Source: a virus. Taken from it: 45,169 nucleotides of DNA. Numbering within the stretch: position 1 is the first letter of the stretch; the number at the start of each line of letters is the position of its first letter. The notes below the pieces were generated by a model. The model was not told the origin of the DNA, did no database searches, and worked only from the letters and a program-made list of their open reading frames with translations. Shown here piece by piece: positions 6,548 to 38,708 of this stretch. A program made the position numbers and the translations under genes. The DNA lies in IMG/VR virus record IMGVR_UViG_3300029922_000122, positions 1 through 45,169 of that record. One strand, given 5' to 3'.

Positions 6548-7630
6548 ATGGCAGGCGAAAAATACAAATTTGGAGTAGGAATTTGCACTTTTAATCGTCC
6601 AAATTTTTTAAAATTATGTTTAGAAAGTCTTCCGAAGGGTGATTATCAAGTTTTTGTATTAAATGATGGGGGAAAAGATGTTAGTGAAGTAATTTCTCCA
6701 TTTAAACGTGACAATTTTAATTATATCAATAGAGAAACCAATCTTGGAGTAGCAAAAACTAAGAATGAATTATTAGAATTGCTTTTGGATCAAGGTTTGG
6801 TACATATTTTCTTAATTGAAGACGATATTATCCTAAAAGATCAGAATGTGTTTGAAAAGTATATTGAAGCAAGTTTAATTAGTGGGATAATGCATTTTAA
6901 TTATGGGCCTGGCAGTCCTTTTAATAGGAAACAGGATATTCAATTTGATTTACATAATAGACATCTACTTAAACAAAATTCCCCCCCTAATCCCAAGTTA
7001 GTTATCGAGTATGAGAAGGGTATTAAAGTTGCATTATATGAACATACTGTAGCAATGTTTAGTTATTTTAGGGATATTGTGATAAAGGATTGTGGGTTAT
7101 TTCCAACTTGTTATAAAAATTGTTGGGAACACGTTCATCACACCAATAATATCATTCAAAAGGGCTATCATCCTTACTTTTGGTGGTTTTCTGATTTATT
7201 TGAGAGTGATTTGTTATTGGAAGAAGCACCTGGTGCAATTGATAACAGTGCTATTGCTACGAAAAAGGAAGATTGGATGAAGAATGTTATGGACGGAAGA
7301 GAAATTTATAAAAATCATTTTGGTTACTATCCAAATAATCCGCCAGTTTTTAGTCAGGGACAAGTAATTGAACAATTAAAACAAATTAAAAATAAATATG
7401 CATCTAAACATAGGGGTGATAAATGTGGAAATGTGATTGATAGAGATTATAATGCTGCATTAAATTTAAAGAAGTGTGGAGAAGAATTTTTAAGACAAAA
7501 TACCGTAAGTTCTACGGGAATTAACGCTTGTGGAGACATTACCTCTTGGTCTGGAGCAATCCAGAAAAAAGTAGTACCTAAGAAACAAGAAGATAACAAA
7601 GAGTCAACAGTTTATTACTTAAAAGTATGA
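6548..7630 (+). CDS. GT2-like glycosyltransferase fused to a TnpB C-terminal tail
   Basis: Residues 1-270 form a GT-A glycosyltransferase: nucleotide-binding start FGVGICTFNRP (8-18), VLNDGG (37-42), and an acidic metal-binding motif LIEDDI (89-94). After about residue 280 the sequence changes to the end of an IS200/IS605 TnpB (OrfB) protein: DKCGNVIDRDYNAALNL (291-307), the zinc-knuckle plus RuvC III segment, then TVSSTGINACGD (319-330), a common TnpB tail. The rest of TnpB (helical domain, earlier RuvC parts, first Cys pair) is absent, and the first Cys of the second pair is Gly290. A nuclease is therefore not expected. The frame is intact across the joint. It opens the glycosylation island. 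The sugar and acceptor are unknown. Confidence 0.85.
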   Translation: MAGEKYKFGVGICTFNRPNFLKLCLESLPKGDYQVFVLNDGGKDVSEVISPFKRDNFNYINRETNLGVAKTKNELLELLLDQGLVHIFLIEDDIILKDQNVFEKYIEASLISGIMHFNYGPGSPFNRKQDIQFDLHNRHLLKQNSPPNPKLVIEYEKGIKVALYEHTVAMFSYFRDIVIKDCGLFPTCYKNCWEHVHHTNNIIQKGYHPYFWWFSDLFESDLLLEEAPGAIDNSAIATKKEDWMKNVMDGREIYKNHFGYYPNNPPVFSQGQVIEQLKQIKNKYASKHRGDKCGNVIDRDYNAALNLKKCGEEFLRQNTVSSTGINACGDITSWSGAIQKKVVPKKQEDNKESTVYYLKV

Positions 7631-7724
7631 ATTTAGATTTTTGTAGGTTTATTAGAACGGAAATTATGTTATGGAAAAATATAGAGATCCCTTGAAAAAG
7701 TTAGCCGAAAATGATTAAAAAATT

Positions 7725-8354
7725 ATGATAATTGATATAGATAACAGACAGACCGGAAAAACTACTCGTTTAATTAATGATGTAGTCAATTATGTAACAA
7801 CCAATAAAAAAGCTACTGTATTTATTGTAGTAGCAGATCATGGTTCAAGTGTACACATATATGATAAATTAAAACAAAAATTAGTAATAAAGATTAAAGA
7901 ATTGACTGAAGACCATATTAAATTAAGGAATGGTAGTGTAATTTACATAGCAGTCTTTGGTGATAATAGTGATAAATGGAGAGGACTTACTATTGACAAA
8001 TGGTATTACGATGAAGTTGGCTTTTTTGATGAAAATCCATCAATATTTTATTCTAAATCTGGATATTATTGTACATCACCTAAATCAGAAAAATTAGAAG
8101 ATGCTAATGAAACATTGAAAAAGTTAGCGGATCAAATATTTCTCCCAATTGATAATGCCGAAGAAGAAATTAATTACAAATTTCCACCAAAATGGATTGA
8201 TTGGTTATTCGAAAGGGTTGTACATTTGTTACCGAAACATTTGATTCTTTTAATTTGTGCGAAAGTGTTTGTTCATGCTTATTTCAAATTGAAAAATAAA
8301 AGAATTGGAACTATTACTTTACGAGAAGCTTTAAAATGTTGGGCGGAGAAATAA
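7725..8354 (+). CDS. P-loop ATPase-like protein with phage-specific C-terminal domain
   Basis: The N-terminus has RQTGKTT (residues 8-14), a Walker A form seen in terminase/helicase-type ATPases. A Walker B-like WYYDEVGFF sits at 93-101, with Asp96 and Glu97. No further helicase or nuclease motifs are visible, and at 209 residues it is too short for a terminase large subunit. The C-terminal part (about 150-209, with WIDWLFERV...LRELKCW-like spacing) resembles a small domain found in many phage proteins of unknown role. It overlaps the next gene by one base (TAATG), so translation is probably coupled. Confidence 0.6.
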   Translation: MIIDIDNRQTGKTTRLINDVVNYVTTNKKATVFIVVADHGSSVHIYDKLKQKLVIKIKELTEDHIKLRNGSVIYIAVFGDNSDKWRGLTIDKWYYDEVGFFDENPSIFYSKSGYYCTSPKSEKLEDANETLKKLADQIFLPIDNAEEEINYKFPPKWIDWLFERVVHLLPKHLILLICAKVFVHAYFKLKNKRIGTITLREALKCWAEK

Positions 8355-9166
8355 TGAAAATCATTATAGGTACAAATATCTTTGGAAAAAGTTTGAAACA
8401 AGATTTAGCACTTCAAACATACGCTACTCTTAAAAAAAAATATTCTGGAATTGTAGATGTTTATGCGTTTCAATTTGAAGATGATACTGTTGAAGTACCA
8501 GATGGTATTGTAGTTTCTAAATCACTCAAAAGAAGTTCTCAAGATTTTGTTATTGGGGGTAAGAAAAAAGCACCTTTAATTCGAGATTTATATGATTCAT
8601 GTGCAGAAAAAAATACGGACTATTTTATTTTCACAAATTCGGATGTAATGATTTCTAATAGACTTATTGATTATATTTTGACTGAAAAGTATATTGCATT
8701 TGGATGTTCAAGAATGGATATTAGACCAATTAAAAGTTTAGATGAATCCATGATTCCTTATAGATACGAAGTTGCAGGATTCGATACTTTTGTGATGAAA
8801 AATGATTGGTATTTGAAGAATAGAAATTTAATTAAAGATTACTTTTTAGGATCGATTTGGTACGATACAGCCATGACAACAATTCTGAAGTTGTATGGCC
8901 AAAATGATCCATTTGTGAATGATTATCCAGTGAAATGTTTACATCCCCATCATGGTTGGGGAAGTGGAACACCAAATCCTGAGAATGACTGGAATACAAA
9001 GTTGTATAATACTGAGAATAAGGATGTAATGGATTCTTGGGGATGGTTTTATCATAATGTACTGACAAAAAGAACACCGAGTTTTTATTTCTTTGATTTA
9101 CTTCCTGATGAAAAGAAAATTGAAAAGGAACATTTTGATAAGTATCTTTTAAAAAATGAATTATGA
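8354..9166 (+). CDS. Glycosyltransferase-like protein (GT-A type)
   Basis: I chose ATG at 8354, which shares a base with the previous stop and has GGAG 6 bases upstream; an in-frame ATG at 8336 would overlap by 19 bases. The 270 residues begin with a beta strand (MKIIIGTNIFG). FIFTNSDVMI at 91-100 is an xDx-type metal/sugar-nucleotide motif. HPHHGWGSG, near residue 200, resembles the catalytic C-terminal loops of such enzymes. It lies within the glycosylation island. Donor and acceptor are unknown. Confidence 0.65.
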   Translation: MKIIIGTNIFGKSLKQDLALQTYATLKKKYSGIVDVYAFQFEDDTVEVPDGIVVSKSLKRSSQDFVIGGKKKAPLIRDLYDSCAEKNTDYFIFTNSDVMISNRLIDYILTEKYIAFGCSRMDIRPIKSLDESMIPYRYEVAGFDTFVMKNDWYLKNRNLIKDYFLGSIWYDTAMTTILKLYGQNDPFVNDYPVKCLHPHHGWGSGTPNPENDWNTKLYNTENKDVMDSWGWFYHNVLTKRTPSFYFFDLLPDEKKIEKEHFDKYLLKNEL

Positions 9167-28501: not shown

Positions 28502-30571
28502 TTAGCAACAGATTGGACTTAGTAAGGTAGAACCAAGAATGGTATCCATTGGTGTTCCGCCATAAATTGTAATTAATTCGCAATTACTTGTGACAGGAGT
28601 TGTGCAGGTAAATGGAACTAGTAAGTTCAATCCATTTATGCTATAAAGTGGTGTGGAACCAATAATAGTAACCAATTCGCATAAAGTTGGTGAAGGTTCA
28701 TAATTAGCAGGATAAACATATGGGCAATTCATTGTATAAACGAAATTGCCACTAACCATTGTTTGAATACCAATATTAGTATTATCCATTAATCTAATTA
28801 CACAAGCGGGAAGTATTGGATATTGAGTGAATTGTGGTCCACAAAGTAAATTATACACATAAAAATTGTTGGTATCTCTTACTGTAACTTTATTTCCACT
28901 TATGTTTAATTTTCTACTGTATTGAACATTTGGTTGTGGATTAGAAGATGAGTAATTCCATTGATATTGATATAATTCCCCATTTAAAGTATCCTTGTAA
29001 TAATATGCTGATCCAGAATTTAAAAGATACGAATTGGGATAACCAGGAGCACCAATTAGTAAGTTTTGGCCATCTAATTTGACCGACCATCCAAAATTAG
29101 AACCTAATAATGAACTACCAAATATTTTTTGATAAAATTGCCATGTCCCATTTATAATTTTATAGATATATACACTTCCATCATTTGTATAGATATTAGA
29201 TTGTGTAGGTGCTCCAACTACTGCTATCCCATGTTTTAAATCTAAATCAAATCCAAATGAATAATCACCATTTCCATCCGTAATATTGAAAATATTTGTT
29301 TCTATCCATGTTCCATTCTGTTTTTGAAATATATGTAAAGTATTTGTAGCACTTGTTATTGCAATTGTATTCCCATCAATTTTAATTTTTCTTCCAAATC
29401 CACTAACATAATTAGCAGAAGTCATCAAATTCTGAGTACTGTTCCACGTATTAAATGTTCTAGAATATACTCCAACTGAGATATTGCTATTATTGTATAC
29501 AACAGTGTCTATCTTTGAATCCATATCGCCAACACTTCCAAAAAATGTACTTCCAGTTAAAAAGTTATTCTTTAATACCCAATTATTACCCTTAAATTCA
29601 TATAAATTTAAATCCAAACTATTAGTTCCTTTTGCCAACAAATAATTATTCTTAAAACTTAATGCGCTTCTGGTAACATCATAATTCAACGAATTAAAAA
29701 ATTGAAACCCTTGACTTACCCATTCCTGATCTTCATATAAATTAACGTAATTATTACTACTGGACTCTATTAATAGATAGTTATCAGTTATCCATAAATT
29801 ATCACTCTCAACTTCCGCCGAATCAAATGGTAATGTTGGGAATACTTGAGTGCAAACAACTTCACTTGATACCGTATTATCATTTTGTGTAGTCCCAGTC
29901 ACATTAAAATGACCCAAATTAAATTGTGTAGAAGTATCTTCACTACAAAATGTCAAACTTATTCCTATATTATTACTAGGTAGATATGTCAAATTTTGTG
30001 TTGTAATTGTTTGATAATAACCATTTATAAATAATTGGACATTAATAGTTTGAGAGTTATTTGTGAGGATTATTCTACATTTTTTACTACTAGGAGATTG
30101 TGTACCAGTTAAAGTATCTGCAATAGTGAAATTAGTTAAAGGTTGGAGTGAAAGGAGAGAGTAATTATTATCTTCTGAGGAACGAATTACCAAAGAATTT
30201 GGGGAAGTATAGAAACCGCCGGTAGTTCTTCCTTCGGATGCTTGGGAAAATTTACCTTCGAAATCTAGTGCGATTCCAGCGAATGCACCAATCATTCCGC
30301 TGAAACTAGAAACCCCATTTACTAAAACTCCAGATGCATTAGTATAACCCAGAGCACCAGCAGGACCACCTCCTTGAGGAATATCTATGGCATTATCATA
30401 AAATGCTAAGCATAATCCACCAGTTGGTGAACCTGAGTAATTGTACATTTCATATTGAAAAGATACAACTATATCGTGTAAAGGATTTAGAATTTCCTTA
30501 TTATAAATGCGATAAAAGGCAAAACCAGATGGTAAAGACAACATTACAAAGTATTTATCTGGGAATTTCAC
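28502..30571 (-). CDS. Virion adhesin: lectin-like N-terminus and FG-GAP beta-propeller
   Basis: 689 residues from GTG 30571. Residues about 30-225 resemble an L-type lectin fold: GMIGAFAGIALDFEG and NSLVIRSSEDNNYSLL. About 250-570 contain FG-GAP-like blades (FGWSVKLDGQNLLIGAPGY, FGFDLDLKHGIAVVGAPTQ), giving an integrin-type beta-propeller. Near the end there are two similar Cys-flanked copies, CELVTIIGSTPLYSI and CELITIYGGTPMDTI. Sugar or surface binding is likely. It is divergent from the 30587 gene, only 15 bases apart. Confidence 0.7.
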   Translation of the reverse strand: MKFPDKYFVMLSLPSGFAFYRIYNKEILNPLHDIVVSFQYEMYNYSGSPTGGLCLAFYDNAIDIPQGGGPAGALGYTNASGVLVNGVSSFSGMIGAFAGIALDFEGKFSQASEGRTTGGFYTSPNSLVIRSSEDNNYSLLSLQPLTNFTIADTLTGTQSPSSKKCRIILTNNSQTINVQLFINGYYQTITTQNLTYLPSNNIGISLTFCSEDTSTQFNLGHFNVTGTTQNDNTVSSEVVCTQVFPTLPFDSAEVESDNLWITDNYLLIESSSNNYVNLYEDQEWVSQGFQFFNSLNYDVTRSALSFKNNYLLAKGTNSLDLNLYEFKGNNWVLKNNFLTGSTFFGSVGDMDSKIDTVVYNNSNISVGVYSRTFNTWNSTQNLMTSANYVSGFGRKIKIDGNTIAITSATNTLHIFQKQNGTWIETNIFNITDGNGDYSFGFDLDLKHGIAVVGAPTQSNIYTNDGSVYIYKIINGTWQFYQKIFGSSLLGSNFGWSVKLDGQNLLIGAPGYPNSYLLNSGSAYYYKDTLNGELYQYQWNYSSSNPQPNVQYSRKLNISGNKVTVRDTNNFYVYNLLCGPQFTQYPILPACVIRLMDNTNIGIQTMVSGNFVYTMNCPYVYPANYEPSPTLCELVTIIGSTPLYSINGLNLLVPFTCTTPVTSNCELITIYGGTPMDTILGSTLLSPICC

Positions 30572-33685: not shown

Positions 33686-35161
33686 ATGAAAAGAATTGCC
33701 CCCACACAAGCATACATTGACGTAAATCGTGCTAAGCTTCTGATTGAAAAATGGAAACCCGTCCTAGATTATTCTAGCGAAGGTGTATCTCCTATTCATG
33801 ATGATCGTACACGTCTCAATACTGCCATGGTTCTTGAAAATCAAGAAAACTGGTGTATCAACGAGAGCGGAAACGTATCGCAAAACGGTGGTGTATTCGG
33901 TGCGGGAACCTCTATCGGAAGTATTTTCAATCCTCCTGGAACAGTTCAGTCTAACGACGGATATGCCCAGGGTGATGCGAGATTACCCAAGATTCTGATT
34001 CCCATGATTCGTCGTACTTTCCCTGAATTAATCTCCAATGAAATCGTTGGCGTACAACCTATGTCAGGCCCAGTCGGACTAGCTTTCGCCTTACGTTATC
34101 AATATGAAGCGAATCAACTCGGTAATAACGGCGTTGACGGTAGCGGATCTAATGCAAATGCTGCAATGAACAACCCACAGGCTGTTTCACAAGGCGTTGA
34201 ATTAGGTTATCAATACCTCGATACTCGTTATACTGGTACTTCGTCTTCACAACTTTCTGGAACTAATGGTGCTTATGGCACATTATTCCCAATGGTTGGC
34301 CAAGACACTGGTGTTGCTGCTATTCTAAGTCAATTTGAGCTGAGTGGAAACATTCCTCAAATCCAACTTACCTTACAGAAAACCGCTGTTGAAGCTGGTA
34401 CACGTAGGTTAGCTGCCCGTTGGTCCGTCGAGTTGGAACAAGATCTACGAAACATGAATGGTATCGATGTCGATACTGAGCTTACAAACGCTATGAGTTA
34501 TGAGCTTCAGGCCGAAATTGACCGTGAAATGATTATTCGTATGATTCAAGTTGCACTCAACGCTGGCTTCGGAACTGGATACTCTGTATGGAGTCCTGCT
34601 TCCGCAGACGGTAGATGGTTGGCTGAACGTAATCGTGACTTCTATCAGAAGTTGATCATTGAAGCAAACAGAATCGCAGTGAGAAATCGCCGTGGTTCTG
34701 CAAATTTCGTCGTAGGTACACCTCGTGTGTGCGCTATTCTCGAAATGCTTCCTGAATTCACCTTCTTGCAAGTTAACGGTAACGTGAACACTCAACCTGT
34801 AGGTATTGCTAAAGTCGGTTCCGTTGGTGGTAGATTTAACATTTATCGTGATACTCGAACCGAAGCTCAGGCTGAACAAACCACAACTGGTGGACCTGCT
34901 CTTCGTGCCGCACGTATCGAGTATGCTCTACTCGGTTACAAAGGCCCAGAGTTTTACGATACTGGTATCATTTATTGTCCTTACATTCCTGTCATGGTTC
35001 AAAGAACTATCGGCCCGAATGACTTCTCCCCTCGCGTAGGCTTGCTTACCCGATACGGTGTCGTGGATAATATTTTTGGTGCAAATCTGTACTATCACGT
35101 AGTATTAATCAGTGGAATTGATCAGGCGTTTACCCCCGGTACACAATCTGTTTACTTCTAA
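33686..35161 (+). CDS. 23: Major capsid protein (gp23-like)
   Basis: 491 residues. T4 gp23 features include KLLIEKWKPVLD near residue 18 (T4 has a similar LLNKWKPLLE start), LENQENW (50-56), and the later IPMIRRTFPELISNEIVGVQPM-type block about 100-125, the capsid fold hallmark. A gp21 cleavage site I-N-E/S at Glu60 fits T4's cut at Glu65. The DNA of this gene is clearly richer in G and C and uses CGT, GGT, AAC and TTC more than its neighbours, consistent with high expression. Ends at a strong terminator. Confidence 0.95.
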   Translation: MKRIAPTQAYIDVNRAKLLIEKWKPVLDYSSEGVSPIHDDRTRLNTAMVLENQENWCINESGNVSQNGGVFGAGTSIGSIFNPPGTVQSNDGYAQGDARLPKILIPMIRRTFPELISNEIVGVQPMSGPVGLAFALRYQYEANQLGNNGVDGSGSNANAAMNNPQAVSQGVELGYQYLDTRYTGTSSSQLSGTNGAYGTLFPMVGQDTGVAAILSQFELSGNIPQIQLTLQKTAVEAGTRRLAARWSVELEQDLRNMNGIDVDTELTNAMSYELQAEIDREMIIRMIQVALNAGFGTGYSVWSPASADGRWLAERNRDFYQKLIIEANRIAVRNRRGSANFVVGTPRVCAILEMLPEFTFLQVNGNVNTQPVGIAKVGSVGGRFNIYRDTRTEAQAEQTTTGGPALRAARIEYALLGYKGPEFYDTGIIYCPYIPVMVQRTIGPNDFSPRVGLLTRYGVVDNIFGANLYYHVVLISGIDQAFTPGTQSVYF

Positions 35162-35195: not shown

Positions 35196-35229
35196 AAAAA
35201 AGGCGAATCAGAAATGGTTCGCCTTTTTT
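35196..35229 (+). terminator. Intrinsic terminator after the capsid gene
   Basis: AAAAAAGGCGAA, a 10-base loop, TTCGCCTTTTTT: a 12-bp stem with a GGCG core ending in a T run. It may work on both strands. Confidence 0.9.
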
Positions 35230-35292
35230 GTTTTTAAAAATATTTTTAAAAAATCTATTGACTTTGTTTATTGATTATGATATTATAATTAA

Positions 35293-37281
35293 ATGATAGA
35301 AAATACAGTGAACAGACCTACTCTAGGTGATAAATCGTATATAACTATTTCTCGTAATAAAGAATTAGTAAAACAAATTAAAAATTTCGTAGAATCTGAG
35401 GGATTTGATATTACCAAAATGCATTTAAAAGAAATGATGCATATTATAGAAAATAATGTGAAAGAAATTCCTAATTGTAAATTTTGTAAAAATCCCGTTA
35501 AATTTAGTTTATCATATGGAAAAGACTCATATTTAAACTATCCTAAATACTGTTCCTCCAGATGCAGCTTGAAAGACCCAGAATTTCAAAAATCCATGAG
35601 AGAAGGATTGATTGAAAAGTATGGGGTAGATAATTGCCAAAAAGTAAAATCTATTAAGGAAAAAACCGTGAATACCCTAATAGAAAAATATGGAGTAACT
35701 AATCCAACATATCTTCCACAAACAAAGATGGCAAGTGATAATTATTGGAATAATTTATCTGATATTGAACTTCAAAAAAGAAATCTAAAAAGAGAACAAA
35801 CATCTTTAGAGAAAACCGGATATAAGCATAATTCTCAAAACCCAGAAGTAGTGATTCAACGTAAAGAAACTTGTAATGAGAGATATGGAGGTAATGCACC
35901 AGCTTCTTCACCAATCGTTCAGGAAAAAATTAAACAGACAAATTTGGAAAAATATGGTGTAGTTACTAATCTCATTGGTGAAGAAAATCTAGCTTATCTT
36001 CGTCAACCATATGATATCAGATATGAAGATAATTATGTAGAAGTTATGGAAAATAGGAAGAATGCTTTCCTAGAAAAATGGGGTGTTGAGAATCCTTTTG
36101 AAAATGAAGAAATTAAAGAAAAAATTAAGCTGACTAATTTAAAAAATTTGGGAGTGGAAAACCCAATGCTATCAAAAGAATTAGTAAACAAAAAGAGTTT
36201 GGCTTACAATATTGAATTTTATTATGACTTTTTTAAACATCCAGACTTTAAGGATATTGAACCAGCATTCCCTGTAGAACAATGGATTAACCATAAGAAA
36301 TATGATATTTTCCAATGGAAATGTAAAAAAACCGGTCAAATATTCCAAGATTACTACGCAAATGGGTGGATTCCAGAATGTCCATGCTGCCATATAAAGA
36401 ATGGGTCCGATATTGAATTATTATTCAAGAAAATAATTGAACCTTATAAATTAAACTATAATTTTAGGGATAGAAATAATCTTGATGGATTAGAGATTGA
36501 TTATTATTTTCCCGATAAGAAAATTGGATTTGAAATAAATGGATTATATTTTCATTCTGCTTCTATGTTAGAAAAACAGGGTAAAGATCCTAAATTCCAT
36601 CATATTAAGAAGACTAATATTGCCAAAAAGAATGGTATTCGTCTTATTCAGATTTTTAGTGATGAAATTATACTTAAAACTAAGCTAGTTAGAAGTAAAA
36701 TTAAGAATATTTTAGGACTCAATACCAGAACTATCTTTGCTAGAAAATGTGATATTCGTGTAGTAGATTTAAAAACAAAAACTAAATTTCTCAATAAGTA
36801 TCATATTCAAGGAAGTGACCATGGAAGTATTGGTTATGGTTTATATTATAAGAATAGGTTAGTTTCTTTGATGACCTTTGGTAATACTAGGGTTTTTATG
36901 GGTAAATTTGATGCGGATTCTGAACTATACAGGTATGCCTCTATTTTCAATTTTAATATTGTTGGGGGTGCGGGTAAACTACTTAGTCATTATATCAAGA
37001 TACACAATCCTAAGAGTATTGTGAGCTATTGTGATACTAGATGGAGTTATGGTAATCTTTATAAATCTTTGGGATTCACTTTAGATCATGAATCCCCCCC
37101 TAATTATTGGTATACTAGAAATCATACCCATCGGGAATACCGATATGGTTTTGCGAAACATAAATTAATTGGAAGTTACCCTCAATATAAAGATCTATCA
37201 GAATCAGAAATTATGAAACTTCTCAAGTTTGATAAAGTTTGGGACTGTGGTAGCCTATGTTTTGTCTGGAAAAGAGATTAA
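35293..37281 (+). CDS. Homing-endonuclease-like protein with VSR-type nuclease core
   Basis: 662 residues. The N-terminus has Cys pairs (CKFCKNP, YCSSRC) followed by four or five repeats of the form [IL]-E-K-[YW]-G-V-x-N (about 105-290), as in DNA-binding repeats of phage homing endonucleases. Residues 400-465 have the VSR/EDxHD-like core: GLEIDYYFPDKK, FEINGLYFHS, then a His/Lys helix and GIRLIQIFSDE. The C-terminal 190 residues are a second conserved domain. It stands alone right after the capsid gene, a usual site for free-standing homing genes. A TATAAT (35284-35289) lies just before the ATG. Confidence 0.8.
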   Translation: MIENTVNRPTLGDKSYITISRNKELVKQIKNFVESEGFDITKMHLKEMMHIIENNVKEIPNCKFCKNPVKFSLSYGKDSYLNYPKYCSSRCSLKDPEFQKSMREGLIEKYGVDNCQKVKSIKEKTVNTLIEKYGVTNPTYLPQTKMASDNYWNNLSDIELQKRNLKREQTSLEKTGYKHNSQNPEVVIQRKETCNERYGGNAPASSPIVQEKIKQTNLEKYGVVTNLIGEENLAYLRQPYDIRYEDNYVEVMENRKNAFLEKWGVENPFENEEIKEKIKLTNLKNLGVENPMLSKELVNKKSLAYNIEFYYDFFKHPDFKDIEPAFPVEQWINHKKYDIFQWKCKKTGQIFQDYYANGWIPECPCCHIKNGSDIELLFKKIIEPYKLNYNFRDRNNLDGLEIDYYFPDKKIGFEINGLYFHSASMLEKQGKDPKFHHIKKTNIAKKNGIRLIQIFSDEIILKTKLVRSKIKNILGLNTRTIFARKCDIRVVDLKTKTKFLNKYHIQGSDHGSIGYGLYYKNRLVSLMTFGNTRVFMGKFDADSELYRYASIFNFNIVGGAGKLLSHYIKIHNPKSIVSYCDTRWSYGNLYKSLGFTLDHESPPNYWYTRNHTHREYRYGFAKHKLIGSYPQYKDLSESEIMKLLKFDKVWDCGSLCFVWKRD

Positions 37282-38277: not shown

Positions 38278-38708
38278 AATTCTTGTAATTTAACACGTTT
38301 TTTGATTATGTCAAAATATTTTTCATCTTTCTCCATTCCTATAAATTTTCTATTTAGATTTTTACAAGCCGATAAAGTCGTACCACTTCCCGCACAATTA
38401 TCTAAAACTAAATCATTCTCGTTGGAATAAGTTTTAACCAAATATTCAAATAATTCTAAAGGTTTTTGTGTAGGATGTAATCTCTAAGGAGAATCATTAT
38501 TCACCACATTAAACTTTAGAATAGGAAATGTTAAAATATTTTTATAATTATGAAAAAATTAACGAAATTCAACCCCCATTTGAAAATGGGGGCTTTCTTT
38601 CTACAGATGATACGGTAAATCACAAAGAATAAGGTCAATTGATTCTGAATCTATTTGCTCCATTAATTCTAAGCAATCGCCTAAGTAACAGTCATTGAAA
38701 TTTAACAT
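38274..38708 (-). pseudogene. Decayed DNA (N6-adenine/N4-cytosine) methyltransferase
   Basis: Two pieces of one methyltransferase are visible on the minus strand. The first, 38708-38601, reads MLNFNDCYLGDCLELM..., then SIDLILCDLPY (motif IV, D-L-P-Y) and stops at TAG. The second lies in frame between stops: NILTFPILKFNVVNNDSP, a TAG at 38486-38484, then RLHPTQKPLELFEYLV and LVLDNCAGSGTTLSA (motif I), ending LQEL at 38274. The middle, including most of the catalytic and target-recognition part, is missing, and a GC-rich hairpin sits in the gap. Frame breaks and the internal stop make a working enzyme unlikely. Confidence 0.85.
38573..38600 (+). terminator. Hairpin inside the methyltransferase relic
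   Basis: CCCCCATT-tgaa-AATGGGGG (38573-38592) followed by CTTTCTTT on the plus strand. Terminator-like, but no plus-strand gene ends here. On the minus strand the T-run is weaker and more distant. Confidence 0.5.

Follow-up and report, generated by a model that had tools for sequence, protein, structure and literature searches.

Why does a phage glycosyltransferase gene run, in frame, into the end of a transposon gene? The window analyzed here is an entire virus record of 45,169 bases that encodes a T4-type major capsid protein at 33686-35161. Its open reading frame (ORF) at 6548-7630 specifies a 360-residue protein that consists of a phage glycosyltransferase (GT) and a C-terminal tail derived from TnpB. 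We propose that a transposon inserted beside the GT stop codon, lost its left part and thereby extended the GT by accident. The tail is thus very probably a transposon scar rather than a new protein module.

Is the GT itself intact? Residues 10-101 match the Pfam family Glycos_transf_2 (PF00535; E 1.7e-7, 31.8 bits against a curated cut-off of 23.3), which identifies a family 2 glycosyltransferase, and the GT also matches PHROG 2456 (E 4e-17). We compared it with 80 IMG/VR relatives that share 49-58% identity over approximately residues 7-283. The C-termini of 74 of the 80 lie at residues 276-295, four continue into unrelated sequence and two leave the contig. Because the relatives end at 276-295, the GT is essentially complete, and the tail starts within a few codons of the usual stop. 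The TnpB tail is absent from every relative with a visible end, which rules out a usual part of the GT family and bears out the expectation that relatives would lack it. Four relatives (L002, L003, L010 and L029) reach approximately 490 residues with other C-terminal sequence, so the GT has been joined to extra sequence elsewhere too.

The origin of the tail is visible in its DNA. At the protein level, the scores are weak when taken alone: residues 287-307 match the TnpB TNB domain (PF07282; E 0.0016, below the curated cut-off), residues 279-319 match NCBIfam IS607_TnpB (E 5e-4, far below the cut-off) and residues 285-319 match the PHROG 506 transposase (E 2e-4). At the DNA level, positions 7487-7660 differ from another phage contig (L082) at one of 174 nucleotides and are 95.4% identical to a further one (L083), and positions 7416-7493 are 90% identical to L084. 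The similarity stops at the same right-hand base (...AACGG) in the window, L082 and L083. Such identity to other phages rules out a chance match and, on sequence grounds, decisively settles the tail as the remnant of a TnpB transposon. The right border of the remnant is exact and the left one is uncertain by some bases, which gives a length of approximately 245 bp. A left end (LE) was not found in the window or in L082, even with up to three mismatches allowed. The window copy holds only the TnpB tail, with no transposase or nuclease gene, and is not a functional IS607 element. Thus, the original prediction of a GT that continues in frame into a TnpB-transposon remnant is confirmed by the DNA identity and by the tailless relatives (Table 1).

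Table 1. Features of the glycosyltransferase gene and the adjoining remnant, in window coordinates
Feature	Position	Strand	Basis
GT domain, residues 1-288, essentially complete	6548..7411	+	PF00535, PHROG 2456, 35-sequence alignment, relatives' ends, high-confidence model
Tail residues 289-360 plus stop codon, in frame with the GT and derived from the tnpB 3' end; a single zinc Cys and RuvC-III DRD	7412..7630	+	
IS607-type transposon remnant: end of tnpB and right end (RE)	7416..7660	+	DNA identity to L082, L083, L084
reRNA hairpin 1, CCGTA-AGTTC-TACGG	7503..7517	+	Paired in all 14 copies; both sides change in 4 of 5 pairs
reRNA long-range helix 7527-7530/7586-7589 around helix 7535-7540/7573-7578 and variable hairpin 7553-7562	7527..7589	+	Compensatory changes
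RE subterminal hairpin	7633..7652	+	97% of cells paired, mostly invariant
Putative guide position in the right flank (AAATTATGTTATGGAA), provided that the reRNA is made	7661..7676	+	Inferred from the reRNA architecture in PMC8612924 and the IS607 boundary in PMC10711439

Which transposon family did the remnant come from? Degenerate patterns of the right end (RE) and the LE occur at 17 and 14 places in viral contigs, respectively, counts that include near-identical copies of one insertion. Several copies are whole, with an LE (GGTTGNCAACAGT...), a tnpB gene of approximately 400 codons and an RE that ends in AACGG. The two whole elements whose inner ORFs were examined (L277 and L278) encode a TnpA in which a MerR domain is combined with a resolvase domain (Resolvase E ~1e-24); this serine recombinase with its MerR-type helix-turn-helix is absent from the window remnant. 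Another element (L201/L271) accommodates LE, tnpB and RE inside 1,558 bp and has no tnpA. The relatives carry GG at both ends (left GGTTG, right AACGG), of which the window keeps the right one alone, and this test is partly circular because the pattern searches required those bases. Both the terminal GG dinucleotides and the serine recombinase are features of IS607 transposons (PMC10711439). The L271 TnpB scores below the curated models of both families (279 bits against 350 for IS607_TnpB and 347 against 425 for IS200_TnpB) and exceeds the general guided_TnpB model (334 against a cut-off of 100). The family call therefore stands on TnpA and the ends, which characterize the parent as IS607-type. 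The IS605-type assignment made originally was wrong.

The parent family resembles known IS607 transposons such as ISXfa1 (PMC10711439) in its GG ends, in the serine-recombinase TnpA and TnpB of the whole relatives and in a guide RNA (reRNA, or omegaRNA) drawn from the tnpB 3' end and the right end. The window copy differs in that it lacks the LE, tnpA and most of tnpB and is joined to a GT gene. Residues 3-379 of the L271 TnpB can also be aligned with ISDra2-type TnpB structures, among them 8bf8, and, as in ISDra2 (PMC8612924), the guide RNA overlaps the tnpB 3' end. However, ISDra2 is an IS200/IS605 element with a Y1 transposase, whereas the transposase in the relatives studied here is a serine recombinase. 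IS607-type TnpB elements likewise occur in isolated Microcystis and Nodularia cyanophages, but their TnpBs are only 39-42% identical and the elements are whole and unfused. In bacterial genomes, a strict pattern search for the parent gave none, and a profile scan returned only distant TnpBs among the matches listed. A group I intron of the IStron kind was rejected, with no intron match in the whole element at L277 5800-9000 and no informative Rfam match in the window. In that same L277 element, tnpA and tnpB are separated by an ORF (6856-7563) whose sequence, judged by eye, suggests a DNA methyltransferase, a possible cargo gene of the element.

Among the phage copies, successive stages of decay are visible. 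Whole elements are followed by copies in which an LE is joined to a shortened tnpB through internal deletion (L083, L084 and L194/L270), by an RE with the start of tnpA (L284, ~72 nt) and by an RE that lacks the LE (~245 bp in the window, ~180 bp in L082 and 34 bp in L279). The internally deleted copies, which keep the LE and a shortened 3' part, resemble the MITE-like non-autonomous derivatives of insertion sequences; the window copy, by comparison, keeps one end and is therefore not mobilizable via the usual two-end route. The L082 tail lies in frame with the start of another ORF and constitutes a second fusion with a different partner, for which no match was found among isolate phages. Because the window tail differs by a single base in 174 from this copy in another phage contig, it is probably recent. 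Among the codon differences between the window tail and L083/L084, 11 of 15 are synonymous. The sources therefore diverged as coding tnpB and were truncated afterwards.

Several further observations touch on these copies and on the window. The 34-nt RE copy at L279 2961-2994 is isolated, 100% identical to L271 and accompanied by no recognizable rest of an element. The L082 contig, which bears the second fusion (G002 28517-28705 and L090 1375-3121), also contains two full-length TnpB genes of other families, one of which adjoins a serine recombinase. Window positions 38520-38614 are 91% identical to L100 5125-5219, a stretch of the L082 contig that immediately precedes a different TnpB gene, and include a CCCCCATTTGAAAATGGGGG palindrome; they appear to be another transposon-end remnant and sit inside what seems, by eye, to be a broken minus-strand DNA methyltransferase gene. 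At 35198-35233, 36 bases identical to L100 9373-9408 form a hairpin and T run just past the major capsid gene that looks like a terminator. The capsid gene also adjoins a 662-residue ORF (35293-37281) with PHROG homing endonuclease (E 4e-109) and DUF7487 matches. Downstream of the GT, the sole match of a 209-residue ORF at 7725-8354 is a weak one to the terminase N-terminus, and a search of IMG/VR gave no relative.

What does the retained DNA encode, if not a transposon protein? In ISDra2, an reRNA is established to derive from the tnpB 3' end and the RE (PMC8612924). We aligned 14 copies of the corresponding region, for which RNAalifold gives a consensus of 25 pairs, 13 of which change on both sides. 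Paired cells amount to 94.6%, compared with 76.5% in shuffles (none of 500 reaches the observed value) and 35-53% when the partner strand is slid. As the copies are related, the counts from the shuffles should not be read as probabilities. Relatedness is preserved in the slid control, although a structure derived from its own alignment tends to beat such a control. A covarying scaffold thus lies between the tnpB 3' end and the RE, as is characteristic of an reRNA, and the window keeps 23 of the 25 pairs, as do copies that adjoin intact tnpB genes. The RE hairpin adds little covariation support because it is mostly invariant. More distant TnpB genes show a similar hairpin with compensatory differences. 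Single-sequence folding gives no excess stability (z ~ -1.1), and the RNA claim therefore rests on covariation, which indicates that the TnpB-tail residues overlie the reRNA scaffold. The stretch TVSSTGINACGD that had attracted attention in the original prediction overlies the first conserved guide-RNA hairpin, and NTVSSTGINACGD is largely a translation of hairpin 1 and the conserved stretch beyond. The transposon end that was to be sought near the stop codon is likewise present as the RE hairpin and a guide-like flank.

How could the fusion have arisen? An IS607-type transposon of a family that circulates in environmental phages would have inserted at or just downstream of the GT 3' end. Deletion would then have removed the GT stop codon together with the left part of the element (LE, tnpA if present and most of tnpB), unless these were never copied, and only the last ~245 bp would remain, with the tnpB end, the reRNA scaffold and the RE. 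With a junction in frame by chance, translation of the GT would continue into the last tnpB codons and end at the tnpB stop. Of the possible histories, insertion and later deletion is the simplest. It is consistent with the DNA identity to other phage contigs and the common right boundary, with whole elements that contain an LE, a serine recombinase and TnpB, with GT relatives that end at the junction, with similar decay in other copies, with mostly synonymous codon changes and with a tail that is disordered in the model. Against it, the junction is in frame in both the window and L082, for which the chance is approximately 1 in 9, and this coincidence could hint at selection for the fusion; moreover, the disorder prediction was made without aligned relatives of the tail. 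Relatives with an empty site were sought and none was found, so neither the insertion point nor the deletion is directly visible. L076, which shares the gene at 8336-9166, was rejected as an empty site, given that it has tandem GT copies and another gene between.

The left truncation may alternatively result from interrupted repair copying, a reading of the scar's formation that does not conflict with insertion and subsequent loss. A TnpB cut would be repaired from the RE side, copying would stop early and the free end would be joined nearby. This route, which we consider possible and rather unlikely, would explain a constant right boundary combined with left borders of varied length and the missing LE in the window, L082 and L279. 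It would also fit the near-identity of the window and L082 tails despite different left junctions, from which truncation seems to have occurred soon after arrival. However, ordinary deletion after insertion yields the same products, and internally deleted copies with both ends also exist. Because no empty site was found, deletion and interrupted copying are not separable.

Has the remnant instead been kept for its RNA? The GT transcript would carry the intact reRNA scaffold and a guide from the right flank, and it is improbable, in our estimate, that the remnant is retained as a targeting RNA that acts in trans. It is equally doubtful that a matching TnpB from the same phage, a co-infecting phage or the host processes this RNA and cuts DNA at the uninterrupted site. 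The covarying scaffold, preserved as in copies beside intact tnpB, and its complete retention in the window, L082 and L083 are consistent with such a role, and TnpB can produce its guide RNA by 5' processing of its own mRNA (PMC10278001). However, the window, L082 and L083 contigs, all possibly fragments, contain no matching full-length TnpB, and the target search was without result, as the DNA searched gave only the copies themselves and isolated weak matches. Remnants that lack the scaffold survive too (34 nt in L279 and ~72 nt in L284), and the window copy seems too young to show whether selection acts on it. The general proposition that phages carry stand-alone guide-RNA genes, in which an RE-only remnant shares the transcript of a phage gene and its RNA serves the TnpB of another element in trans, has a similarly small probability. 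If it were true, the window would contain a guide-RNA gene that overlaps the GT 3' end, and its RNA would direct cuts in competing or empty-site DNA. No description of a solo or remnant reRNA was found in the literature searched, which covered few subscription journals. Regulators of the TldR type keep a protein, whereas the window remnant keeps only the RNA-coding end; like that remnant, the phage-encoded TldRs represent a guide system of TnpB origin in phages (PMC13418256).

Could the tail serve the GT as a protein? The original prediction suggested a binding or stability module, which is not supported, and the loss of one zinc cysteine, which needs correction. The first zinc knuckle lies outside the remnant and the ECVKC of L084 reads RGDKC in the window, so three of the four cysteines are absent, which also excludes a zinc module. 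As had been expected, only the end of TnpB is present: RuvC-I and RuvC-II are missing, and, in comparison with L084 and L201, the RuvC-III DRD motif and one cysteine do not amount to an active TnpB nuclease. An AlphaFold2 model built from 35 aligned sequences has high confidence to approximately residue 290 and a pLDDT of ~32-54 from residue 291, predicting a disordered tail, although the tail had no aligned relatives in this job, which itself lowers confidence. That the tail was captured and retained for GT binding or stability is therefore very hard to credit: its junction is in frame with an otherwise complete GT, but it is predicted to be disordered, lacks RuvC-I, RuvC-II and three of the four zinc cysteines, is absent from all 80 relatives examined and is apparently recent. 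The 72 extra residues are most likely an unfolded, dispensable by-product, and the conservation of the tail is explained by the coding constraint on tnpB before truncation and by the guide-RNA structure. An assembly artefact is just as implausible, since an assembler could jump between phages only within the repeat that several of them share, whereas the GT-tail junction is unique sequence and would still be real in one genome, with only the right flank doubtful.

The transposon scar has implications for how phage proteins are annotated. When an unrelated phage protein ends in a TnpB-like tail, that tail can be the translation of a guide-RNA gene, and a TNB or 'transposase' domain label on it is therefore misleading. 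The phage copies range in steps from whole IS607-type elements down to an RE of 34 nt, with a strongly covarying guide-RNA fold. With this series, one can test whether an RE-only remnant is still able to guide TnpB in trans, and by what route such remnants originate.
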